Assembly: GCA_021234155.1 (NCBI GenBank)
Contig: JAJEKV010000218.1
Span: forward strand, 248,001-312,000
Source of the DNA: Isoetes taiwanensis
Taxonomy: Eukaryota; Streptophyta; Lycopodiopsida; Isoetales; Isoetaceae
Reading direction: 5' to 3'
Length of the DNA: 64,000 nucleotides
Shown: piece by piece, positions 3,440-64,000 of the stretch
Position numbering within the stretch: position 1 is the first letter of the stretch
Layout of the letters: the number at the start of each line of letters is the position of its first letter
Notes under the pieces: model-generated
The model's database searches: none
Told to the model about the DNA's origin: nothing
What the model saw: only the letters and a program-made list of their open reading frames with translations
Translations under genes and position numbers: made by a program

Positions 3440-3930
3440 GGTACCTTATCTGAATAGTGAATTGGCTTCCATATGTTTCTATACTTAGTGTCATATGTGA
3501 TGTTAGATATGGTGATACTTGTGAATGGTGGATTGTCTGCCATATGTGGTGCCAAGCTCTTTGCGCTAAATATTGCACCACGCTATCGCCACATATGGGG
3601 TGGTGGATGCGCGGATGTGGTGCCTTCTTTGCATTGTGGTGCCACATGTGGTGTCTAATGTGGCACCACTATGGATCCACATTTTGCACCACATGTGGTG
3701 TCTTTGACGCCATTTGTGGTGCGAAGTAATGGATTGCCATATGTGGTGCCTTGGGTGCATTGTGGTGCCATAGGTGGTGTGTCATGTGGCACCAATTGCC
3801 ACACCACATGTGGTGAATATGACGCCACCCTGGTGCCACATGCCACACCACATGTGGTGAATATGACGCCATTTGTGGTGCAAAGTTTGTCATGATGGAA
3901 TTTGTGGTGTGTAAAGTGGTGCCTGTTGTG
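3440..3930. repeat. TGTGGTG-word array A with CACCACATGTGGTG palindromes
   Basis: The stretch is built from irregularly spaced TGTGGTG / CACCACA words. Three of them form the perfect 14-bp palindrome CACCACATGTGGTG (about 3687, 3803 and 3847). The repetition keeps frames open on both strands, so the 60-90 codon ORFs here are artefacts. Related word arrays lie at 6.1, 8.5, 10.6 and 12.8 kb. Confidence 0.8.
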
Positions 3931-14110: not shown

Positions 14111-14399
14111 GGCAGATTTGCTTCCAAATTAAATGATTGAAGGTATGAACAGGATTGATCCACAAGCCGGATTAAGCGCCATAGCCGTGTGCTTGAGGGA
14201 AAGAAGGGTGGGTGGTCGTGGGTTTAGAAATCGGTTCGGTGGAGATTGGAATGGGGCGGGTGGCGTAGAAAATTGGAATGGGGACGGGTGGCGTAGGAAT
14301 CGGGTTGTTGCAGTTCAAGAAATGATTGAATCCGGGCAGTACATGCACTAGGCGCCAAACAAACATTTAAAATCGCACCACAAATTTGATATCTCCCAC

Positions 14400-17230
14400 C
14401 ACATTTTTAGGGGGGACAGGGGGGACACCCAGGGTGTTCCACTACAACATGCTTTCACCCAGATCATTTGCAAGTGTAGGCAATAGAGCTAAGCAAGTGT
14501 TGGAGCTTGTCCACTCAGATCTTTGTGGACCAACAGAGGTGTCTGCGTGCCTTGGTAAGGCAGTATATTTCATCACGTTTATTGATGATTTTAGTCGGAA
14601 AACAATTGTCTATTTTCTAACCAAGAAAAGTGATGCTCTTGAGGCTTTCAAATTGTATAAAGCATGTGTAGAAAATGGGGCGGGGAGGAAGATCAAGCAA
14701 TTGCGCGACTTGATGGTGGTGGAGAGTCGAGGCGGGGGATTCGGCATCAATGCACAACGAGGGGCTACTCCTCAACAAAGCGGTGTTGCGAAGAGGAAGA
14801 ATCGCGCACTTTGTGCAATGCGGCAAGAAGTATGCTTCTTAGAAAGTCATTTGCCAAAGCATTTTTGGGCTGATGCAATTGCTGCGGCTGATTCACGTGC
14901 AAAGCAGATTGACCCACGGTTGCCTTGGATAATGAGATGACTCCGAAGAAGCTTGGTGCGAGAGAAACGGATGTTTCTCATTTGCGCACCTTTGGATGTA
15001 CCGCTTATGTACATGTTCCCGAGCATTTTTGTGAGAGAAAATTTGATGCCCGTAGCACCAAATGCACTTTCATTGGCTATGCACCTAATCATAAAAAAGC
15101 ATACTTGTTGTGGGATCAAAAGCGGAAAAAGGTATACACCAGCTCGAAGTAGTTTTTGATGAGTCAAATTCTATGTGTATTGATCCACTTGCAGATGGAA
15201 ACTTCATTCAAGACAAATATCTTGTTCTTGATGATCCTCCACTCGTTGAGCTTCAAGATTTGGGGCTGAACCAGCAGCAAGATGTGCCTTTGCCGCCGGA
15301 TGTGCAACAACCCATCAATGATGATCCACCTCATAATCAAGTTCTTCCTTATCCTCGGCTCATTGGAATGCCCCCCTCCTCTCGATCAACAGATTTGCCA
15401 CCACGTAGCAGAACACCTTCTCGTAAAGTTCTTGAAAATGTTGAACTTAATTTGGTTGAATGGTGTTGCTTGGCAGTGCAAGGTAAACCAGCAAGCATTG
15501 AGGAAGCATGGGCTTCTTCTGAAGCTTTACATTGGAAGCAGGCGCTGAGGTAGAGCTGCGATCCATGGATGCAAACCGGTATGGAAACTTGCTGATTTGC
15601 CCATTGGCAAAGCGATGGATTGCAAATGGCTATTCACAAAAAGTACAAGGCTGATGGCAGCCTTGACAAGTATAAGGCTAGGCTAGTTGCTCGAGGTTTC
15701 AGCCAAGTCAAAGGTCTTGATTATGATGAGACATTTTCACCGGTAGTGAGAATGAATAGCTTGCGTGTTTTGCTTGCCTTAGGAGCCAAATTGGAATGGG
15801 AAATTCATCAAATGGATGTGGATACGGCATTCCTGAATGGAGATCTTCTTGAGGACATCTATATGCTGCAACCTCCAGGTTTTGAACTACCCGGCCACGA
15901 AAACAAGGTATGTAAACTCCGGAAGGCCATTTATGGCTTAAAGCAGGCGTCTCGGGTTTGGTACAAGAAGTTTGATGATGCACTTAAGCATGAAGGATTT
16001 CAGGTTGCTACAACAGATTCTAATGTCTACATCAAGTGCATGGGAGGTATGTATTTGATTTTAGTGCTATATGTGGATGATATGCTTGCAATGGGCAGCA
16101 ATCTTCTTGATGTTCAAGCACTTAAATCTCAACTAGCTAGCAAGTTTAAGATGAAAGATTTGGGTGCAGCTAGCTCTTTCTTGGGTATCTTGAGATACAT
16201 CGCGGATAGGAAGAAGAGGCTAATTCATATCAGCCAACCTCGGTATGCTGAATTTTTGCTTGAGCAATTTCGCATGGCGATTGTAAGCTTTGTTTCCCGC
16301 CAATGGAAGCCGGGCCTCAAATTGTTTGAAGATGAACTGTTTGTGATAATGCGCTGATCATCTTCTCTACCATATAGGCGACTTGTTGGGAGTTTGATGT
16401 ATCTTATGACCATAGCACGACTGATCTTTGTTTTGTTTGTGATTGCATTGAGTCGGTTTTAACCAACATTATGAGTTAAAGCATTGGCGGCTAGCAAAGC
16501 GTGTTCTTCGCTATTTGCAAGGAACAAAAGAGTATGGAATCGTTATTATGATAACGGATCAGCAAGTCTTCATGCATTTATCGATGCAAGTTGGGGCAAC
16601 AACATGGATTCTCATTCCACTGAGGTAGCACATGCATGTTTTATGGAGGTGCAAGAATTTTGGATAAGCAAAAACAATCTGTTGTAGCACGATCTTCAGC
16701 GAGGCGAGAATACATTGCCTTATCTCACCGGAGTTGCGGATCTTATTTGGTATGACCACTTGCTTAATGATGTTGGTATTTCTGCGCAGCAACGTATTCA
16801 TGTTTATGTGGACAACCAAAGTTGCATGAAAATGGCAGAGCGACCAGGACATCATCCTCGGACAAAGCAATCATTTCATTAATCTATTTGCCCACAGGTG
16901 CAATGGTTGCAGATATCTTTACTAAGCCACTGGGCACACAAAAGTTTGTACAGTTTAGATCAGCACTTGGTGTTATACCATTGCAGTAGCTTCAGATTAT
17001 CCAGCTTGAAAGGGGAGTGTTAGAATATTCAAGCTGTACATTAGATACATTGATGTACATTAGATACATTGATGTACATTAGAAGTACATCATGTACATC
17101 TCTGGCCTTTGGCCTTACATTTCCATCGTTGGCCTTTCGATTGCCATTCATTCCATGTACTTATAGATTACATGCAATACATAGAACATCCAGATTGTTC
17201 CTATTCTATCATAGCCGTCGTTTTCCAACA
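14400..17230 (+). mobile_element. Ty1/copia LTR retrotransposon, 5'-truncated fossil
   Basis: The order of parts is typical of copia: integrase core (about 14,460-15,160, with VHSDLCGPTE and FITFIDDFSRKT), reverse transcriptase (about 15,620-16,220, with ARLVARGFSQVKGLDYDETF, AIYGLKQASRVWY and LYVDDMLAMG), RNase H remnants (about 16,490-16,900), a closing FTKPLGTQKF-like segment, a purine tract and the 3' LTR. No gag, protease or 5' LTR is seen, so the left side is missing. The coding part is broken in several places (roughly half a dozen to ten). RT motifs are still readable, which suggests moderate age. Confidence 0.9.
17018..17230 (+). repeat. Copia 3' LTR
   Basis: It follows the purine-rich tract AAAGGGGAG and begins TGTTAGAATATTC. 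It ends TTTTCCAACA near 17,230, so the ends are TGTT...AACA. It contains short tandem TTAGATACATTGATGTACA units. The exact right border is inferred, because no second LTR is available for comparison. Confidence 0.65.
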
Positions 17231-35195: not shown

Positions 35196-35230
35196 TATAT
35201 TAGCTTGCTCTTTACATTTTCAAATGCAAT

Positions 35231-36997
35231 ATGGATCCGCCGGCAGTGGTAGTGGGGCTTGATTTCGGAACCACTTATTCTGGTTTTGCATATGCTCATC
35301 GAAGTGATCCTTCCGATGTCCATATTTTGGAAAATTGGCCTTCTTCTGATGCTGTCGCAGGAAAATTATATTGCAAGACCCAAACTAGCTTGTTCTACGA
35401 AAGAGTAGGGGGTTCGCTGGAGCTAAAAGCTTGGGGCTGGCCTGCACTTTTGAAGTTTCTTCAAGCGCAAGGCGCTGGCTATGGCTCTGCTAATTCTGGT
35501 GGGCACGAAGATTTGGCACAGGCAGTCAGCATAGTGGGTGAAAATAGAGCTGTTTTTGCTACCAAATTTAAGCTGCTGCTAGCTCCAGATTCTGAGGAAC
35601 AAGAGTTGCCTGATGGGCTCTCTGCTCGGAGACTTATATCGGACTATCTAAAATGCATGTCCGATTTTATTATGGTTCATCTCAAGGACAAATATGGCAA
35701 ACATTTTAAAAAGCAAAATGTGCAGTGGTGTGTAACAGTGCCTGCAATTTGGGATCATGGTGCAAAGCAGCAGATGAAAATCTGCTGTGAAATTGCTGGA
35801 ATAGTGCAAGGCAAATATTGCACGGATAGTTCTGCAAGCTCTCATGATCTCCGCATAGTCTTAGAGCCTGAAGCTGCATCCATGTACTGCCAGAGAAAGC
35901 TTCATGATATTTCTCTACGAACTGGGGATGAATTCATGGTTGTAGATATTGGAGGTGGAACTATCGATCTAGTTGTGCACCAAAAAGCCAACGATAATCT
36001 CTACCAAGTACATGAAGCAGCAAGGAACTGTGGCAAAATGGGTGGAGGTACGTTTGTAGATATGAATTTCTTTTGTTATTTGGCAAACAGAATTGGTTGT
36101 TTTCAAGAGTTTGTTAGGCAAGATTCAATGCTCTTTGCCAAAGTGCTTGATTGGTGGCTTCGGAAAAAGTGGTCGTTTGATGGCTCTCCTTCGTCTGTGG
36201 GCTTGGGTTGGGATATTCCGTCTAAGCTTTCTGCTGCGTGGAAAAAATATGACAGATCAAAGGGGATTATTAGGCCGGAAGATGAGTACGAAGTACTAGA
36301 CTTGAGCGCTCAAAAGTTGAAGGAGTTATTTGACACTGAGGTGGATAAAACAATACAGCTAATAAAACGACAGCTAGAACTGTGTCCAACAGTGAAGTGC
36401 TTGTTGATAGTAGGAGGATTTTCTGAAAATTCTTACATGACTAGCCGAATAAGGGAGAAGTTTGGTCGTAAAGTGGAGGATATTATTATTCCAGTAAATC
36501 CTGGAGCTGCTGTTTTGCATGGCGCTGTCAGGTTTGGATTTCAATCAAATCTTGTGCTCTCCAGGAAATCCAAGAAGACCTATGGAATAGGCACTTCGCA
36601 TAAATTCAAAGGTTGTCATTCGAAACATGTTACAACAGATCCTGATGGAGTTCAACGCTGTGAAAAGATTTTTGCGAAGTACGTTCGGAAAAATCAATCT
36701 GTATTAATGGATTCTTGTGTTAAGCATAGTTTCTTCCCAATCTATCACGACCAGAAAAAAATAAATCTCTCTTTATTTTCGTCAGATGATAAATATCCGA
36801 TTCACACAACAGACAAAGGCTGTGTAGAGGAATCTAGTTACTGCATGGATATCCGAGAGGATTTACACTTGGGCATAGAAAGGAAAATAGAAGTGAAGAT
36901 GTATTTTGGGCGCAGCACAATTGAAGTGACAGCCAGACGACTAAATTTTGGGGACCCAAAGCCAGAAAAACTGTATTTTGTGAAATTTGAAACCTAA
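35231..36997 (+). CDS. HSPA12-like atypical HSP70
   Basis: An uninterrupted 588-codon frame. The actin/HSP70 ATPase fold is clear: phosphate-1 VVGLDFGTTYSGFAYAH (residues 7-23, D11), connect-1 CVTVPAIWDHGAKQQM (about 166-181), LEPEAASMYC (about 212), phosphate-2 MVVDIGGGTIDLVVH (about 235-249), GGGTFVDMNF (about 270), adenosine motif LLIVGGFSENSYMTSRIREK (about 390-409) and NPGAAVLHGAVRFG (about 423). The last 150 residues do not resemble the HSP70 substrate-binding domain, as is usual for HSPA12, so canonical DnaJ/NEF-driven client folding should not be assumed. There is no signal peptide or membrane segment, so the cytosol is likely. The start has good context (caatATGG). An AATAAA lies at about 37,268. 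A stretch of tandem repeats directly upstream and a copied gene start at 33.64 kb suggest a rearranged promoter. It is the only clearly intact long gene here. Confidence 0.93.
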   Translation: MDPPAVVVGLDFGTTYSGFAYAHRSDPSDVHILENWPSSDAVAGKLYCKTQTSLFYERVGGSLELKAWGWPALLKFLQAQGAGYGSANSGGHEDLAQAVSIVGENRAVFATKFKLLLAPDSEEQELPDGLSARRLISDYLKCMSDFIMVHLKDKYGKHFKKQNVQWCVTVPAIWDHGAKQQMKICCEIAGIVQGKYCTDSSASSHDLRIVLEPEAASMYCQRKLHDISLRTGDEFMVVDIGGGTIDLVVHQKANDNLYQVHEAARNCGKMGGGTFVDMNFFCYLANRIGCFQEFVRQDSMLFAKVLDWWLRKKWSFDGSPSSVGLGWDIPSKLSAAWKKYDRSKGIIRPEDEYEVLDLSAQKLKELFDTEVDKTIQLIKRQLELCPTVKCLLIVGGFSENSYMTSRIREKFGRKVEDIIIPVNPGAAVLHGAVRFGFQSNLVLSRKSKKTYGIGTSHKFKGCHSKHVTTDPDGVQRCEKIFAKYVRKNQSVLMDSCVKHSFFPIYHDQKKINLSLFSSDDKYPIHTTDKGCVEESSYCMDIREDLHLGIERKIEVKMYFGRSTIEVTARRLNFGDPKPEKLYFVKFET

Positions 36998-38140
36998 AAC
37001 TGATAGCTCTATTATGTGCCAAAATTTGAATTTTGAAGGTTTGAATTCGAAATGTTAGCTTTCATCAAAGCATTGGTATCATGAAATTGGATGGTCTTGT
37101 CCACAAAAAAGAGGAATAATTTAAATGATGTTTTTTGATAGACAATTCGCACATGTACCGTTCACCGCTCACCCCTCTTGTAACCTATATCGCAGACCGT
37201 TAAGATAAAAAATCAATGGATAAGGTTTGTTTGCACTGTAATAGGGCTGAACTACGAGTGGGTCTGGAATAAAAGTGTCATAATTTCTTATTCCCATCTT
37301 TGTTTAGCATATGGACATGTGCATGTGAAAGCTATTTGAAAGGGCTTTTTGGGGATGTAAAAATTTGCCACATTTGCCTTTTAAATCTCTTTAAAAAGCT
37401 TCAAAAAAGAGGATGGATACCCCTATGCAATAAAAAGAGACCCCTCTCATGAAGGGGGCCATCAGACCCCCTCCCTTTTCGCCTATTCTAGTTTTTTATA
37501 GATATGTCAGAATCAAATGAGACATTGGTCAACTCTGCCCTGTTTGCTTCGACAAACAACCAACTCTATTGTTTCAGCCATCCGTTGTTGCCCTGTAGTG
37601 CATAACAACTCAAGGAGATCAAGTTCTCGAAGACATTTCACCACTTTTTTCTCGCATAGGAAGCCGAGTCATTGAAAATAATAGTTTTCTCGTGTGAGGG
37701 TAAATCACTTTACCAAGACATTTCGACCTTTTTTCTCAGATGCATAGGCAAGAAATCACAGACTCCAACAAAAATTAAGAATTCATATTTACAATTGGGT
37801 TCATTACAATGTATATTAGAGCAAATGAAGAGACCATAGCGGTTGTGCTGTCACAATGATGTCATAGCCGATGTCATGTTCGAAGCCACAAGAGCAACTT
37901 GAACACGATAGAAATGTGTATGAAGAGGTGCTTCATGGGCCATGCGCTGGCCTATCCAACCAATGTCATCACCCTCTTCTCGCCTCCTTCCTTCAATGAG
38001 TAGGTCTTTGCATTGCTCACGAACATGTACTACTAGTCGGGATACGGAATGCAAAAGACAGAATCAAGTCAGTCAGGTGACGCTACAGACAAGATAAATG
38101 AAATCAAAACCAATTGTGAAGGCCATTTTTAAAAAACACA
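36998..38140. other. 3' flank of the HSPA12-like gene; no other gene seen
   Basis: Includes a poly(A)-signal-like AATAAA near 37,268 and a short hairpin CCCCTCTCATGAAGGGGG near 37,442. The frames at 37,851-38,054 on the minus strand lack a recognised domain. Confidence 0.4.
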
Positions 38141-52898: not shown

Positions 52899-53718
52899 TT
52901 AAGACCTGGTTTGCAACACTATAGGGTCTATCACATATGCCTCCCGGTGGGGTCGCGGGGCCTTAACTATATCCCACGTCGGGAATGGTGGGGGCTTCAC
53001 CGCCTGTCCGGCCTCCTCCTGCTCCTGTGCTACCTGCTCAGGTGCCTCTTGCTGGGGCACTTCCTTCTCCACGGGCGCGGGTTTTGAAGAACTCGCCCCC
53101 TCTGTGTTGGGGATGTAATCCTCGTCCGAATCGTCGGTAGAAGGCGGGGTCTCTTCGCCTGATGGTTCGTTGATGACGGGCCCTACCGCTCGCTTCCCGA
53201 CCTTCACAACTTTTCTCTTGCCTGCTTTAATGGCTTTGGCCTTCCTCTTCTTTGGCTCGCTGGCAGTGGTTGGGTCGTCCTCCCGATTCTTAGTCCCTAC
53301 GCTCCGGCGTCGGCTCTTTGGCTTCATACTGGCGATGAAGCGCCAAAGATCTGCTTCTTCTGCGCGGGGCTAAGAGTCGTGGTCATTTGCTCTTCCCTTC
53401 CTTGCTCCTCCTGCGAGGTGGGTCTCGATCACGGTGTTGCTCTTATTTTGTTGGCGCCTGCACGCTCCCGTTGCTCCCTGCTCCTTCCTTCCTCCTGTGC
53501 GATCTCCTCGAGGATTTGATGCATGATGTCCGGTCGGTCGTCCTCTATGATCTCCGTATGGTCGCCTCCGTCGATCCTCTGCATCTTAATTCGAAGAAGA
53601 TTCGCCTTCTCGGAAAAGGCGTTCTTGAAGGACCCTCTGAAAGAGGCCAGAACCGCTGGCGCTGGAGGATCCGCTTCGACTAGGCTTCCTTGCAGTCTGT
53701 TTCGTGCGGGCCATCATT
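52899..53718 (-). mobile_element. Gag-like first ORF with a histone H3 tail at its N-terminus (fossil)
   Basis: The minus strand opens at 53,718 with MMARTKQTARKP and a Ser/Gly-rich linker. Residues after the second Met are identical to histone H3 residues 1-9 (A-R-T-K-Q-T-A-R-K), including both Lys4 and Lys9. Further along are an acidic helical stretch (EIIEDDRPDIMHQILEEIAQ), a very basic part (KPKSRRRSVGTKNRED, KKRKAKAIKAGKRKVVKVGK) and a Pro/Glu-rich acidic end (DDSDEDYIPNTEGASSSKPA). This is not a histone: no histone fold follows. A TATA box and LTR-like sequence lie just upstream. I read it as the first (gag-like) ORF of an LTR-type element, but a host or DNA-transposon origin is possible. 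It is broken in about two or three places. No pol region is seen. Confidence 0.5.
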
Positions 53719-53739: not shown

Positions 53740-55240
53740 TAAGCGCCAGAAGATCGCCTCGGCGAATACGAGCAAACTTCTAAGGAAGAGCGCGAAAATG
53801 GGAGGGGTCTAGGTCTATTTATAGGTGTCAATTTTAGGTCAACTTTTAAACTACCTTTTGGGGTGCTTAAAACATCTAAAACACCTAATTAAGCAAGGGT
53901 CTCACGTTAAGCCCGGCCAGAAAATGAAAAAGTCATTTCTGTCGGCGCCGGCGTGTGAGAGACATGGTGGGACCCACTACTAAATTTTGTACTTTTTAAA
54001 CAAGTAACATGCTAATTCTACCGATTCTTAGCTCTAATTTAGAATTATCAAGCTATTTTTTCTTTGTAATTTACAACTTTTGGTGTGTTTAATTTGAATG
54101 TCTCACCGCGTTGCTTGCCCGAAAATGAAAATCTCATTTCACGTCTGGGCGGCGTGTGACCACCTACTTTTGGATGTTGGCTCACCAATTCTTAATCTTT
54201 TTATGTTTTCATTCATTTTAATGTTACTAGCTTAGCATAAACTACAAAAATGAGAAAAATTTTCCCATTTTTTCGAGGTTTAAGGATCCTATCGAGGTTA
54301 GTACTATCGGGAACATGGCGGTGCTTTGCTCTTGGTCTCCAAGAACATTGCTCGATACCCACCGTGGCGTCCCCCTACTCGCATCACGATTGCACTCACA
54401 GGTATACAACAGAGTTCATCCCCATACCGGCTCCATGCCGATCTGGGGGCCCTCCACATAACACCGCAACTTCGTGGCGGGTTCAAGTGGGAAGAGTGAA
54501 GGGTCATTTTACCCGTCTCCCTCGGGGTCTACCTAGGCTGGAAGCGTAACATACATGTCGATTACACAACATAAGCACATATCCCCTCGAAGGGTGGTCC
54601 ATCACATCTGCATAAACAAGGTGAGCCAATACATAAGGGAAGTTCTACCCAAGGCTCGGACTCAGGGGATAACCGGCGGCTTGGGTCTCGAGTTCATTGC
54701 TTGAGGCGAGAATTCATGGCAATGGATTTGGGCGGCATATGAACATGGCCTAGGGTTGTCCACTCCATCCGCCCCTCACTGTGCACACTTTGCGAGTAGG
54801 CTGAAAAGTGTCGGGACTGGCCCAGTAGCCAGCCGGATGCATAGCCAAAAGGGCTATTCACGGGTTTCATCTCTCGGTTCCGATGGGGCGGGAAGGGTCA
54901 CCCCCCGAGAGATCTACATCTTTGACTCAAGGTGACTAGAGGGCCCCTTGCCCGTGATTCGGTGAACCCACCGGAAAGTGTACACCACTTCACAGTGTCG
55001 AGTCCATGCCTCACCCGCTTTTCGGTGGTGAGCCATTAGACCTAGTCACAATGATCCTCGGTAGGCCTTACACACCGGAGGGATCGTTCAAGAGTCGAGG
55101 ACATGAACCTCCTTCTCGGCCCGGTCGGCCCCTTCACCCACAACCAGGTGTGGTTCTTGTACACAGGCCGAATCTATAGTGTGCTAGAGAGGCTACTCTA
55201 GGAGCATCTACTACCAAGCTTTAGGTCTCTACACATGGAT
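53740..55240 (-). mobile_element. LTR-like region of the H3-tail element
   Basis: On the minus strand the region begins TGTAGAGACCTAAAGC at about 55,236. It carries a TATA box (TATAAATA, 53,823-53,816) about 100 bp before the ORF and has a TGGCGCT primer-site-like word at 53,749-53,743. Two diverged copies of an (a)AAATGAAAA(a/t)(g/c)TCATTTC...GGCGTGTGA block (53,911-53,965 and 54,117-54,165) sit upstream of the TATA box, as in many U3 regions. Its start matches 46.13-46.45 kb. No partner LTR was found on the left, so the element is incomplete. Confidence 0.45.
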
Positions 55241-55259
55241 AAAGGAATTTACAAAACTA

Positions 55260-56066: not shown

Positions 56067-56891
56067 TTATTTAGGATGATCTCCCAAATATGGAAGTAGA
56101 GCGTCCCTCACTGTTGACAGCTCAGCTTGACGTAGTCGCAATATTTCAGCAGCCTTAGAGTGGCCATCGACTGATTTGGATCCTTGCACTATGTCAACGA
56201 CGGCGAAAGCAATAGTGAGAACACTAGCAGCGCCAGCAAATGTTCTGCCAACGGTTTTGGCAACGGTGTTGGCCCCCTTTGTAGTTATCTCTATACTTTT
56301 CACCGATGCTGTAGTTAAGCTTATACCTTGCATTTCTCCCATAGACGTGACAATCATATTCCTTGCAACTGCTGCTGAAGCAGTAACACTTGTGTTTACA
56401 ATAGTGGTACTAGCGTAGATTCATTCTTGGGGGTAACAAGGGCGTTCCATAATGCACCCTTTGCAATGTCTACACCATCCGGGCCTTGCCCTTCAAATTT
56501 TTCTTGATTCCTCGATCGCCTCGAGATTCCTTGATTCCTCAAGATCTGCCCTATGCAAGTAATGAGGTACCACCGGTGAAAGGTCTGGAACACTAGTGCA
56601 TTTGCTCCGATTAGCCCACCGACTAGTCTTAGCTTCCACCGCGCATTTAAAAAAGCATCAAATTAATCACCTCATATTGCATTATAAACCGATTCATGCT
56701 TTCTTGCCTGTTATCTTTGCCACACCCGTTTCCCATTCCCTTTTATCAAGAACATCGCAATCCGTAGAGAATGCGTGATTGCCTCGTTCCCTAATCTTAA
56801 CCAATCCTTGGCATCAAATTTCATCAATTTATCTAGCTCATTCCTTAACCTTTTCTCGCTTATCGTCCCCATAACTAGCCTAAGACCCACT
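56067..56891 (-). pseudogene. Apolipoprotein-L-like membrane protein gene, copy A
   Basis: Minus-strand pieces in order: EKRLRNELDKLMKFDAKDWL and EWETGVAKITGKKA (about 56,890-56,694), then a hydrophobic Ala/Gly segment (compare copy B), GPDGVDIAKGALWNALVTP (about 56,470), and an open C-terminal piece of 96 codons (56,067-56,357) with GANTVAKTVGRTFAGAASVL, TIAFAVVDIVQGSKS and SKAAEILRLRQAELSTVRDA. The layout - a helical N-part, a Gly/Ala hydrophobic hairpin, then 'V-D-I-V-x-G-S-K-S' and an amphipathic C-terminal helix - recalls the apolipoprotein-L family of membrane-inserting proteins. This is resemblance only. The C-terminal part exists once in the window, and the N-terminal part twice. It seems broken in at least one or two places. 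Confidence 0.4.
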
Positions 56892-57544
56892 GCCTTTGAT
56901 GCCTTCGATAATAATAGAATATGAGACCTATATACGCCAAAGTTGGAGTTAGCAGTTAGTAGTTACCTAAAGGTTAACGCGAAAATAACGTATAACAAGT
57001 CAGCGGAGGTGATAACGAGTTATTTTTTTGCCAAAAAAAAACAATCGATTTTTAACAATTTGAAACTTTTTCTTTACTAATTCGAACACGCTGAATTCAA
57101 ATATGCAATCAGAATTCTCAAATACCTACTCTAACCTAGCAATGAACGTCGTTAAGAAGTTCGTCCAAGATTTATCAAGTATAAGGAAGAGTTGGGGACT
57201 GTTGCAAAACCTTGAATAATTCGTCCAAGCGGAAGAGTTGGGGACTGTCGCAGAAACCTTAAAAAAACTAACATGTTTTCTATGCCGACCTCTTATCAAA
57301 AACCTTAAATAATTCGTCGGAGTTGGGGACTGTGTTCCAAAAGAATACGTGTTGTTTTCTATGCGAGCTTGTTGACTTCTTATATCCTTACTAGCAGGTC
57401 CCATACTATTGAAGAAGGAAAGCCAAGTTTTGTTTGTAAGTTTGTGGACAAACCACAATGCCGCTCGTGATGACATGTAACCAAATCTCACCCTCACAAA
57501 TAAACCAAAACAGCCAAATATGCCAATTGGGGTGGAAAACCAAT

Positions 57545-57763
57545 TGGGACTTGTGGAATAATGTTGGGCCATGACCATGTCAACATTACATGAAAGATTA
57601 GGTTTCTGATATTAATTCTCACCATGTGGGACTTGCGCAATAATAATGGGCCATGACCATGTGAACATGACATGAAAGATTAGCTTTTCCATATTAATTT
57701 CACCGTGTGGGACTTGTGGAATAATGTCGGGCCATGACCATGTGAACACGACATGAAAGACTA
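57545..57763. repeat. About 80-bp repeats beside the Helitron end
   Basis: GGGACTTG(t/c)G(g/c)AATAAT(g/a), GGGCCATGACCATGTGAACA and TGAAAGATTAG recur three times (57,545, 57,629, 57,708), and again in copy B (60,256, 60,340, 62,565). Nearby, GAGTTGGGGACTGT recurs three times (57,188-57,330). Confidence 0.75.
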
Positions 57764-59033
57764 GTAATGGTGCCCAGTGTTGCTGGGCATAAGTTGAAGC
57801 CTATAAATGTTTTGGCCACAAAAGCGTGCAATAATAATTCAACTTTTGCATTCTAACAAAAAAGGTCGCTTAAAAGAAACTTTCATGTTAGATAGTGTTG
57901 TGTCCCCAGTGATAAGAACTTACATTACCAATGAACACTCTATGGAGTTCAAGAACCATCTGCATTGTCTTACATCAATGAAGCAAAAGGAACAATACAC
58001 TTCCTAGAAACTTACATCATCATGACACAAGCTCTAAGCAAAAGAACAATGCACTAACTCAAAACCGTATCCCCATAACTCAACCTCTAGCAACTCACAG
58101 ACACTACTACCTTAACTTGGTGCTTGGTGCAAATATTATATTGCATTATAGAAGAAGTAATTGTGCAAAAGTTGGTAACCTGTAAATGATGATCCTGCGG
58201 ATTCACTTTGGAAACACGACGTCTTGAATTTGAATGCATTGTAGCGTATTGGTGAAAGCATGTTTCTCAAATTGCAAAGTCAATGTCAAGCATACAAAAG
58301 AAAACAAAATTTTAATATAAAGATATATGCTTGCTTCTTGAATTGTTCTGCAATACAATGCTTCATAATTCTTTGAGGCTTGCACTTATGGTATATGGAG
58401 TAGCTTTGGCATAGATTTCTACACCTTAACATTTCTTCATGTGTCTCAAAACATGTAAATAAAGCTTCTTGTTTTTTTTGTAGGCAAGCTTTTTTAATTT
58501 TCTATTAATCTAAAAAACACAGTACATGACCTTATTGGAGTAGGCTCCACAATAGGCCTGATAAAAATATTTGCAAGAACAATGGTCTACCAGATCAAAA
58601 AAATAGTCGCAGTAACACACCAATTCAAGATAAGAGTCTGAAGAGTAGTGCTGTCCCTTCAATTTCAAGCAAGAATGCAGCCACTATAAATTCTACAAGC
58701 ATGGCCCTTTGAAGCTCCAACACCGACAAATGCAAGCAAATGGAGAGCTTAGGCGAGAAAATGTCATACTATGCGTTAAATTGACCTGGAAGTCATCCTG
58801 CATTGCAATACTATAAGAGCTCGGCACCCCTTTCCAATCCTGTACTAGAGAGTGAGTTCATGACTCCATCTTCCTGCTTTGCAAGAACTCATACAGGTCT
58901 ATCTCAAGGAGGTGGTCTACTTGCTCTTCTAATGCTCCTCCACACACTGGCATAGGCCACGTCTGCAGTATGATTAAAGGAACCAAGGTCTTCCGCCCAA
59001 GGCTTCTTTAAATGGCCTCCTTCTTTGCTACTG
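57761..59033 (-). mobile_element. Helitron-like element end and body, copy A
   Basis: Read on the minus strand the terminus is TGCCCAGCAACACTGGGCA, six bases, CTAG, then T (57,760). The sequence to its right (to the duplication edge at 59,033) is shared with 62,619-63,890. Short protein-like scraps in it have no recognised domain. The 5' terminus was not found, so the body limits are provisional. Confidence 0.45.
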
Positions 59034-59040
59034 GGGTAAC

Positions 59041-59430
59041 AAGGACGTTCCATAATGCACCCTTTGCAATGTCTACACCATCTGGGCCACCGGTGAAAGT
59101 AATGAGGTACCACCGGTGAAAGGTGCAGACACTAGTGCAGCTGCTCCGATTAGCCCACCAGCTAGTGCTGCGCTTCCACCTGCATTTAAAAAGCATCAAA
59201 TTAATCACCTCATATTGCATTATAAACCAGATTCATGCTTTCTTGCCTGTTATCTTTGCCACACCCGTTTCCCATTCCCTTTTATCAAGAACATCTGCAA
59301 TCCGTAGAATGTACGTGATTGTCTCGTTCCCCAATCTTAACCAATCCTTGGCATCAAATTTCATCAATTTATCTAGCTCATTCCTTAACCTTTTCTCGCT
59401 TATCGTCCCCATAACTAGCCTAAGACCCAC
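59041..59430 (-). pseudogene. Apolipoprotein-L-like gene, copy B (N-terminal part)
   Basis: Carries MGLRLVMGTISEKRLRNELD and EWETGVAKITGKKA (59,430-59,233), a candidate AG acceptor (TGCAG, about 59,185), and the hydrophobic hairpin GGSAALAGGLIGAAALVSAP followed by FTGGTSLLSPVAQMV. It then runs into unrelated duplicated sequence at 59,033, so the C-terminal half seen in copy A is absent. The hairpin is best preserved here. Confidence 0.4.
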
Positions 59431-60382
59431 TGCCTTTGATGCCTTCGATAATAATAGAATATGAGACCTATATACGCCAAAGTTGGAGTTAGCAGTTAGT
59501 AGTTACCTAAAGGTTAACGCGAAAATAACGTATAACAAGTCAGCGGAGGTGATAACGAGTTATTTTTTTGCCAAAAAAAAACAATCGATTTTTAACAATT
59601 TGAAACTTTTTCTTTACTAATTCGAACACGCTGAATTCAAATATGCAATCAGAATTCTCAAATACCTACTCTAACCTAGCAATGAACGTCGTTAAGAAGT
59701 TCGTCCAAGATTTATCAAGTATAAGGAAGAGTTGGGGACTGTTGCAAAACCTTGAATAATTCGTCCAAGCGGAAGAGTTGGGGACTGTCACAGAAACCTT
59801 AAAAAACTAACATGTTTTCTATGCCGACCTCTTATCAAAAACCTTAAATAATTCGTCGGAGTTGGGGACTGTGTTCCAAAAGAATACGTGTTGTTTTCTA
59901 TGCGAGCTTGTTGACTTCTTATATCCTTACTAGCAGGTCCCATACTATTGAAGAAGGAAAGCCAAGTTTTGTTTGTAAGTTTGTGGACAAACCACAATGC
60001 CGCTCGTGATGACATGTAACCAAATCTCACCCTCACAAATAAACCAAAACAGCCAAATATGCCAATTGGGGTGGAAAACCAAATCTCACCTATGCAGGTA
60101 AACCAAACCAGCCAAACACATCAGTCATGGTGGAACCCAACCCAAGTTAGAACTTGGCTAGTTGACCATGATATTTTTGCTAAAGGTCAATTTTTGCGAG
60201 TGGGTGGGATCGGTGCTTAAGTTTGATGTTTTTTTATATTAATTCTCACCTTTATGGGACTTGTGGAATAATGTTGGGCCATGACCATGTCAACATTACA
60301 TGAAAGATTAGGTTTCTGATATTAATTCTCACCATGTGGGACTTGCGCAATAATAATGGGCCATGACCATGTGAACATGACA

Positions 60383-61231: not shown

Positions 61232-62526
61232 ACACATACTTACATATATATATCCGAGAAAAAAAAAGAGAACTCTTGCGCAGATAAATCTATACGGAGA
61301 AACGGTATAAATTTATACCGAATTTATATATATATATAAGACTTTTTATATATATATGTATATATATATGCAAAATCAGAGGCAAAAATATATATCGTGT
61401 AAAATCTTTTGGGGTCTTTCTTGCTTTCGCCAAAGGGTTTGGTAACTGAAAACTACTAAAGTAACACACACATAAGGGATAATTTTACACACTTTTCTTG
61501 GTTTTTTAGTCTAAAAAGTTCTAAAAAACGGTTCTAAATTTTACGAGCTTGTAATGCAATGTTAGAGCATAAAGTAGTCGAATCATGTTGTTATTTCTAC
61601 TTTTTTTTCTCTATATACATGCGAACTTCACTTCGTGTAGCTCAAAAATTGCTACTAAAGGCAAAGAACTCCAAAATGTTATGGTGACATGTGTGTTTGA
61701 CTAAAAGGAAACTACATGGTTTATCCAGAGGGATGCGAGGAGTAGAAACCCCTAAGTTTACCTATTTATTTGCAAATATATAGGAAAGGGTAAAGGCAGA
61801 CGAATACTTCCTTCGCCCGGAGAAATGTGCATGGTGCCCATCGCTATGGATGGCGTAATTGTGATGAATATGCTCAACATTACTAAAGAGATTGACTATC
61901 TTCGAGCATCACCATGTTGTAGAAAGACATGTGCATTCAAAATACATCTCGAGAATAAAAAGGAGGGCATGTAATCACTGGGGCTTCATTACTTCAACTT
62001 TTGTATCCCAGATAAATTTATCTTGCATCATCAACTAAAACTTCAAACTTAGCTACAAGATATCGTGGATGTATTGGCATTTATAATACTATGTGATGCA
62101 AAAACAATGGTTTGTCATTCAAGAAGTTTGTTCAACTGCCTCCCAATGTGTTTTAAGGTCCATTAGGATGTTTAGCAAAAATGGTTGTAAAATAACAAAT
62201 TTCTTGTCTTCTAAAATAGCTAATATAAAAGTTTTCAGGGACAAGGTACAAAAGCATCTAATTTCTTCATACGAATTTGCCCCATAGTAAATCTTTGAAT
62301 TTCATTGTAGTTCTTTCCCCCTCTAAAATGGGATTTTTTTTGTTTTGTGTTTTTCCTTAATACTAAGTCTTCTTAAAATGTCTGTTTTCACGAGCAATTT
62401 TATAAATCTTTGGACTAATGGTAATAAAAGGGCCCTTTTTAGAGGGATTTTAGAATTTTATAAATTTTCAAAAGGAATCTTTCAAACGCACTTCTTAAAT
62501 AAGTGCGTTTCATTTTAAACCTTGTT
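60383..62526. mobile_element. 2.1-kb TIR DNA transposon, non-autonomous
   Basis: Starts AACAAAGTTTAAAATGAAAC and ends with its inverse (GTTTCATTTTAAACCTTGTT); 24 of 25 terminal bases match. The inverted similarity continues for about 100 bp (GAAAGATTCC, CTAAAATCCC, AAAAAGG.CCCTTTT). It is flanked by GACA on both sides (60,379-60,382 and 62,527-62,530). Copy A of the surrounding duplication has the undisturbed site (AACATGACATGAAAG, about 57,665), which fixes both borders and shows the element jumped in after the duplication. The interior has no transposase that I recognise. The 4-bp target duplication does not fit hAT, Mutator, CACTA or Mariner; Sola- or Ginger-like groups use 4 bp, but the family stays open. 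Confidence 0.85.
60955..61320. repeat. GGTATAAATTTATACC palindrome cluster
   Basis: Three perfect 16-bp palindromes (61,021, 61,146, 61,304) and four near copies (60,958, 61,053, 61,085, 61,116) lie inside the TIR element, spaced about 30-60 bp apart and then 158 bp. TA-rich runs follow (61,200-61,370). Confidence 0.9.
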
Positions 62527-62618
62527 GACATGAAAGATTAGCTTTTCCATATTAATTTCACCGTGTGGGACTTGTGGAATAATGTTGGGCCATGACCATG
62601 TGAACACGACATGAAAGA

Positions 62619-63890
62619 CTAGTAATGGTGCCCAGTGTTGCTGGGCATAAGTTGAAGCCTATAAATGTTTTGGCCACAAAAGCGTGCAATAATAATTCAA
62701 CTTTTGCATTCTAACAAAAAAGGTCGCTTAAAAGAAACTTTCATGTTAGATAGTGTTGTGTCCGCAGTGATAAGAACTTACATTACCAATGAACACTCTA
62801 TGGAGTTCAAGAACCATCTGCATTGTCTTACATCAATGAAGCAAAAGGAACAATACACTTCCTAGAAACTTACATCATCATGACACAAGCTCTAAGCAAA
62901 AGAAACAATGCACTAACTCAAAACTGTATCCCCATAACTCAACCTCTAGCAACTCACAGACACTACTACCTTAACTTGGTGCTTGGTGCAAATATTATAT
63001 TGCATTATAGAAGAAGTAATTGTGCAAAAGTTGGTAACCTGTAAATGATGATCCTGCGGATTCACTTTGGAAACACGACGTCTTGAATTTTTCCACATTG
63101 AATTTGAATGCATTGTAGCGTATTGGTGAAAGCATGTTTCTCAAATTGCAAAGTCAATGTCAAGCATACAAAAGAAAACAAAATTTTAATATAAAGATAT
63201 ATGCTTGCTTCTTGAATTGTTCTGCAATACAATGCTTCATAATTCTTTGAGGCTTGCACTTATGGTATATGGAGTAGCTTTGGCATAGATTTCTACACCT
63301 TAACATTTCTTCATGTGTCTCAAAACATGTAAATAAAGCTTCTTGTTTTTTTTGTAGGCAAGCTTTTTAATTTTCTATTAATCTAAAAAAACAAAGACAT
63401 GACCTTATTGGAGTAGGCTCCACAATAGGCCTGATAAAAATATTTGCAAGAACAATGGTCTACCGGATCAAAAAATAGTCGCAGAACACACCAATCCAAG
63501 ATAAGAGTCAAGAGTAGTGTTGTCCCTTCAATTTCAAGCAAGAATGCAGCCACTATAAATTCTACAAGCATGGCCCTTTGAAGCTCCAACACCGACAAAT
63601 GCAAGCAAATGGAGAGCTTAGGCGAGAAAATGTCATACCATGCGTTAAATTGACCTGGAAGTCATCCTGCATTGCAATACTATAAGAGCTCGGCACCCCT
63701 TTCCAATCCTGTACTAGAGAGTGAGTTCATGACTCCATCTTCCTGCTTTGCAAGAACTCATACAGGTCTATCTCAAGGAGGTGGTCTACTTTCTCTTCTA
63801 ATGCTCCTCCACACACTGGCATAGGCCACGTCTGCAATATGATTAAAGGAACCAAGGTCTCCCGCCCAAGGCTTCTTTAAATGGCCTCCT
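62619..63890 (-). mobile_element. Helitron-like element end and body, copy B
   Basis: The same minus-strand terminus as at 57,761 (hairpin, CTAG, T), and about 1.27 kb of near-identical sequence. After about 63,890 the two copies part company. It exists by segmental duplication rather than by separate transposition. Confidence 0.45.
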
Positions 63891-64000
63891 TCTCTGCTCT
63901 ACTTATATGTTTCTGCACTACCTGCAGATACTAATCTCCCCTAGCTGGGATAGGGATGGACGAACTCTAGAATAGCTCAACCAAAGTACACTCCAAAGTA

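Follow-up and report, generated by a model that had tools for sequence, protein, structure and literature searches.

The 64,000-nucleotide stretch of Isoetes taiwanensis DNA analyzed here (the window) contains an LTR retrotransposon of the chromovirus type in truncated form. The first open reading frame of this element (ORF1) encodes a histone H3 variant, and in the family of this copy both the H3 tail and the H3 fold have been under purifying selection. ORF1 is thus almost certainly a selected, element-encoded H3 variant. Intact copies encode the exact first nine residues of H3, an insert of ~300 residues in which charged residues and proline abound, and a divergent H3 fold at the C terminus, so that the remainder of the canonical tail is replaced by the insert.

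The window copy and its retrotransposon family

As originally predicted, the peptide ARTKQTARK, identical to histone H3 residues 1 to 9, lies on the minus strand at 53711-53685 (GCC CGC ACG AAA CAG ACT GCA AGG AAG), directly after the second of two adjacent ATGs (53717-53715 and 53714-53712); the start contexts described at that time, weak for the first ATG and strong for the second, also agree with the sequence. A proline and a Ser/Gly linker follow, and the reading frame of the window copy meets a stop after 43 codons. The remaining, decayed part of the histone ORF (52923-53684, minus strand) belongs to the insert region, and the element piece, which spans 55232-52923, breaks off at 52923, short of the H3 fold. 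Upstream of the ORF are an LTR fragment (54363-55232, minus strand), which is the 5′ LTR without its own 5′ end and aligns to other copies from 55232 onward, a degraded tRNA-Met primer binding site (54350-54361, minus strand; TGGGTATCGAGC, compared with TGGTATCAGAGC in the complete copy described below), and, 109 nt ahead of the second ATG, a TATAAATA box (53816-53823, minus strand) that may belong to an internal promoter. The end of the LTR in the window was carried over by eye from an LTR-to-LTR comparison in a complete copy.

Several candidate features around the tail were discarded. A tRNA-Arg primer site near 53748 was equalled in score by 256 of 2,000 shuffled sequences, and the real primer site lies near 54361; an apparent 8-bp target duplication near 55252 and 52841 is not the element's end. 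Homology to H3 in the final residues of the 43-codon ORF was matched by 327 of 2,000 shuffles, and a periodicity hint of coding in frame +1 around 53650-53430 was dropped in view of relatives, most of which stay in frame 0 there. A tblastn search with H3 gave no convincing H3 fold elsewhere in the window (best non-tail match, E = 0.058 at 37321-37374), Pfam found no histone domain on the minus strand between 47.1 and 57.0 kb, and neither Rfam nor the viral contigs gave a match. The window reading had no match in protein databases at E ≤ 1 and ≤ 10, values that a ten-residue identity hardly reaches in so large a database.

Other parts of the window contain a decayed Copia-like integrase and reverse transcriptase, in pieces, at 14371-16357 (plus strand; judged from ORF reading), and a long intronless Hsp70-like ORF at 35204-36997 (plus strand), whose nearest proteins come from Selaginella, Adiantum, and Diphasiastrum (41 to 44%), as fits a seed-free vascular plant. 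Direct repeats of ~97% identity (56554-57543 with 59094-60082, and 57668-59029 with 62526-63898) reflect recent local duplication.

The description of the tail-bearing frame as a mobile-element ORF proved correct: the window copy belongs to an LTR retrotransposon with many relatives in the genome. A complete copy is covered by three readings (L051, L042, and L050), with a summed length of ~13.3 kb. Its LTRs (TGTGACGT..ACGTCACA, i.e., TG..CA) are 93.0% identical, a 5-bp target duplication (GATGC) flanks the element on both sides, the TGGTATCAGAGC tRNA-Met primer site follows the 5′ LTR, and a purine-rich tract (GGTGGGGAGAA) precedes the 3′ LTR. In related readings (L040 and L031) gag, protease, reverse transcriptase, and integrase occur in this order (PF03732 and PF19259, PF08284, PF00078, and PF00665), and in L050 a chromodomain (PF00385, E = 2.7e-10) lies behind an integrase-type SH3 domain. 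By domain order, we assign the element to the chromovirus-type Ty3/gypsy group. Most chromoviruses use tRNA-Met, and extra ORFs have been reported in plant elements, according to the accessible part of PMC6317226.

The element resembles chromoviruses in its LTRs, tRNA-Met primer site, gag, protease, reverse transcriptase, integrase, and chromodomain, and differs from them in the two ORFs between the primer site and gag: the histone ORF1 and ORF2, a protein of 511 codons (L037:4355-5887, minus strand) that belongs to no known family. For ORF2, Pfam searches with pieces of L031 and NCBIfam and PDB searches with L037 returned nothing convincing, with no match at all in NCBIfam. The TATAAATA box is present 104 to 110 nt upstream of the second ATG in all 20 copies read over a long distance; it also occurs before ORF2 in the five copies examined, and again near 5.55 kb in three of these. 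In L042, the oriented segments 1580-1850 and 3441-3708, before ORF1 and ORF2, respectively, form a promoter-like repeat of ~72% identity, each with a TATAAATA box, and both ORFs thus look as if they were equipped with internal promoters.

Histone fold and selection in the family

Relatives were collected from the host genome assembly (1.66 Gb, 1,110 contigs). With a 501-base query the best 40 of 832 candidates were scored, the window included; 20 of the 39 other copies were read over 9.9 kb and 19 over 421 bases. ORF1 is open for 417 to 426 codons in 9 of the 20 long copies, and its C terminus is a histone fold (PF00125; E = 1.2e-26 in L036 and 2e-26 in L042), as also seen in L041 and L049 and in an alignment of eight copies; in the PDB, H3 chains rank best (E = 7e-28). 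The original prediction that no histone fold follows the tail therefore holds for the truncated window copy and fails for the family; likewise, a bare tail mimic without a fold describes the window copy only. When the L036 protein was searched against the host genome, 36 of the best 99 places scored, among 13,887 candidates, matched its residues 1 to 422 without an internal stop (counted manually), and many family copies are decayed.

Within the fold, alignment to H3 shows that C110, H113, D123, L126, and R116 to T118 are kept, and that H3 R63 is replaced by proline. We take C110, H113, D123, and L126 to be H3-H3 contact positions. Structure models were poor (pLDDT of 51 and 63), and Foldseek searches with them gave no match at E ≤ 0.001, the two best rows being nucleosome entries.

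To the 31 frame-intact copies among the 40 (9 were set aside by the frame criterion) we added 10 divergent copies (74 to 84% protein identity), whose tails were hand-picked from open-frame rows of the L036 search. In these 41 copies pN/pS is 0.034 for the tail versus 0.52 for the next 13 codons, the linker (codon permutation, P = 0.0013). The expectation voiced with the original prediction, a tail that is kept as the linker drifts, is thereby borne out. The 31 copies on their own give 0.056 for the tail and 0.59 for the next 13 codons. An unaltered tail occurs in 36 of 41 copies, the others carrying A7T (three copies), T6I (one), or K4E (one), and the residue after K9 is proline in 40 of 41; with decayed copies counted, the exact tail is found in 30 of the 40 copies and in 9 of the 10 divergent ones. 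The contrast with the linker is weak when few copies are compared (0.165 versus 0.227 in the intact copies and 0.296 versus 0.365 in all), and eleven-codon windows as conserved as the tail number 16 of 390 in 21 copies and 110 of 399 in the eight intact copies.

This exactness bears on the idea that the protein compacts the nucleic acid of the element, either inside virus-like particles or immediately after reverse transcription, the tail being a basic binding segment. Both tail and insert are basic, and ORF1 is located beside gag in the same element, as such a protein might be; a basic segment, however, would allow the exchange of lysine and arginine and other changes as well, and we regard packaging as very unlikely.

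Rates were also obtained for ORF1 as a whole and for its fold. In the eight intact copies, a set chosen for open frames and hence biased low, pN/pS is 0.158 for ORF1 and 0.077 for the fold (L045 was excluded, as a portion of its insert lies in a different frame); in 20 copies taken regardless of intactness the values are 0.285 and 0.203. ORF2 (16 copies) and gag-pol (12 copies) gave 0.395 and 0.375, respectively. A functionless captured histone fragment, whose tail is a relic or an accident, would be compatible with the decay of many copies and with the occurrence of chance tails in other DNA (two in 257 Gb; see below), but it is contradicted by the rates for ORF1 and the tail, unless gene conversion between copies or the alignment distorts them, and is extremely improbable. 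The conservation of the fold is also more than would be needed if abundant ORF1 protein acted outside nucleosomes, titrating host writers and readers of H3K4 and H3K9 in solution and so weakening silencing. Such a decoy would account for the tighter constraint on the tail relative to the linker, and the length of the insert might keep the tail accessible; given the fold and the proline at position 10, we consider it unlikely.

The second Met is present in all 50 copies read and the first in 36, which fits translation from the second, as had been proposed. With the conserved start at the second Met, removal of this Met could plausibly leave ARTK as the free end.

The probability of nine exact residues at the very N terminus had been judged to be small, and our estimates concur. 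The codon pattern of the tail is found a single time in the window and never in 100 shuffled sequences, and about 3e-7 exact 9-mers are expected in the window. As an empirical control, the pattern of ATG plus tail was sought in 257 Gb of prokaryote contigs and was found nine times. By translation, seven of the matches are real H3 genes (one of them, L008, cut by the contig end), presumably eukaryotic contamination, while two are accidents: in L001 (6061-6090) the stretch is out of frame within a long ORF, and in L004 (728-757) it lies opposite a long ORF, in antisense orientation. These two accidental stretches in bacterial DNA help to gauge how often famous motifs arise by chance. Chance tails exist, then, and are very rare, and their odds rise if many famous motifs are sought over many windows; for the tail in the window the selection data decide, and together with the shuffles and the prokaryote control they lead us to reject a chance origin.

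Source of the histone and a second histone-bearing family

The host genome has 15 full-length matches to canonical H3 (96 to 98%), all intronless. One of these genes was read for codon comparison; it agrees with the element in 20 of the 30 bases of ATG plus tail, and where one has an arginine codon of the CGN type the other has AGR, or vice versa. The codons of the element thus differ from those of this one host gene, a check that had been suggested earlier, and the tail was not copied from it recently. Since tail and H3 fold are encoded together in one ORF, a captured histone gene is favored over convergence.

Which histone gene was captured is less clear-cut. The ORF1 fold is identical to host H3 at 50 of 89 positions and to a provisional Arabidopsis CENH3 sequence at 47 of 89. 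In a small tree it joins two CENH3 sequences (support of 0.933), and it has KEIRHFQ, LLIP, and TLMR in common with this Arabidopsis CENH3, as would be expected if ORF1 derived from a CENH3-like gene and directed the element to, or mimicked, centromeric chromatin. The CENH3 sequences in that tree were provisional too, long-branch attraction may have produced the grouping, and the host's own CENH3 was not found. Loop 1 of the ORF1 fold has the length of that in H3, and the alignment score is 217 to H3 versus 152 and 163 to the provisional CENH3 sequences. We rate centromere targeting as quite unlikely.

A search of the host genome with H3, in which the best 150 of 9,022 candidates were scored, yielded 135 H3-like matches (71 to 86% identity) beyond the 15 H3 genes, many of them in open frames of 420 to 567 codons. 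Six of these (L072 to L077, on contigs C1044, C1065, C907, C974, C1074, and C1061) share an N terminus of the type MAITKSAPDP and lack the H3 tail; their C-terminal H3 fold is far closer to host H3 than is that of ORF1 (76 of 89 and 77 of 89 identical residues in L072 and L074, respectively). In the one case followed downstream (L078), the next ORF after the histone ORF is an ORF2-like protein (E = 2e-4, an N-terminal relative), and hence the two histone-bearing families seem to have this gene order in common; a search over 4.45 kb detected no gag-pol domain. Family members without the tail had been named as grounds for rejecting the mimicry idea. Such relatives do exist, but they constitute a separate family with a different N terminus, and they imply that the tail is not needed by every histone-bearing family. 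Perhaps one family arose from a CENH3-like gene and the other from a canonical H3 gene.

A possible role in chromatin

Overall, we lean toward an H3 variant of the element that resides in nucleosomes and uses its tethered tail for targeting, for relief from silencing, or for both. ORF1 would be expressed from the LTR or from the internal TATA box, and Met removal would expose the free ARTK end. The H3 fold would then pair with host H4 and enter nucleosomes, a step that we consider somewhat probable. There, the tail on its long tether would recruit the element's own chromodomain integrase, or else engage host writers and readers of H3, and the element would gain favorable targeting, relief from silencing, or both. 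That ORF1 serves in targeting or in escape from silencing is a possibility to which we give a little less than even weight.

It is tempting to regard the element's chromodomain as the reader of the tail, for which it is an attractive candidate. It looks like a type II chromodomain, a class whose binding partners are described as unidentified in the accessible part of PMC6317226. In an alignment read by eye the cage tryptophan is evident and the other aromatics are not clearly so, a pattern like that of the type II domains, and for this reason the domain may not read methyl-lysine. A scheme in which the element both writes and reads its own chromatin address, with the H3 variant loaded and its tethered tail docking the chromodomain of the element's integrase, is accordingly rather doubtful.

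The proline at position 10 bears on the choice of lysine. Around the modified lysine, the motif of the animal enzyme EHMT (G9a) is [GCSAKLN]RK[TGQSVMALNKER] (PMC10611923, accessible part), and the ORF1 tail falls outside it; the motif is that of animals, and the enzymes of plants may have other requirements. This weakens the mimicry idea as far as K9 is concerned, while K4-type reading needs only residues ahead of position 10. Counting against the model as a whole are this proline, the chromodomain aromatics, the tail-less second family, the poor structure models, the weakness of the tail-to-linker contrast in small sets of copies, and the replacement of R63 by proline.

ORF1 has residues 1 to 9 of histone H3 and an H3 fold, and is set apart from H3 and CENH3 by the insert of ~300 residues, by Pro10, and by its location in a repeated mobile element. 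Host-type domains fixed in plant elements have a precedent in orchid Ty3/gypsy elements with an AlkB-type domain (PMC9289625); the domain acquired here is instead a core histone, and the domains named in the accessible part of that paper (CHROMO, PMD, AIR1, AlkB, G-patch, KOW, ArgoL2, and B3) do not include one. Histone mimicry by pathogens, such as that of influenza NS1 (PMC12937675, accessible part), likewise places an H3-like tail on a foreign protein, whereas in the present case the tail is N-terminal, exact over nine residues, fused to a histone fold, and encoded by an endogenous element. We found no retrotransposon-encoded histone in the open-access literature, a scope that does not establish its absence from print.

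Core histones are host genes, and here a retrotransposon family bears one whose residues 1 to 9 are identical to those of H3 and are kept by selection. The family thus offers a natural experiment on what these nine residues do when severed from the remaining tail, as well as a candidate for what the type II chromodomains of plant chromoviruses, still poorly understood, may bind, and the idea that transposons manipulate chromatin with histones of their own becomes directly testable.
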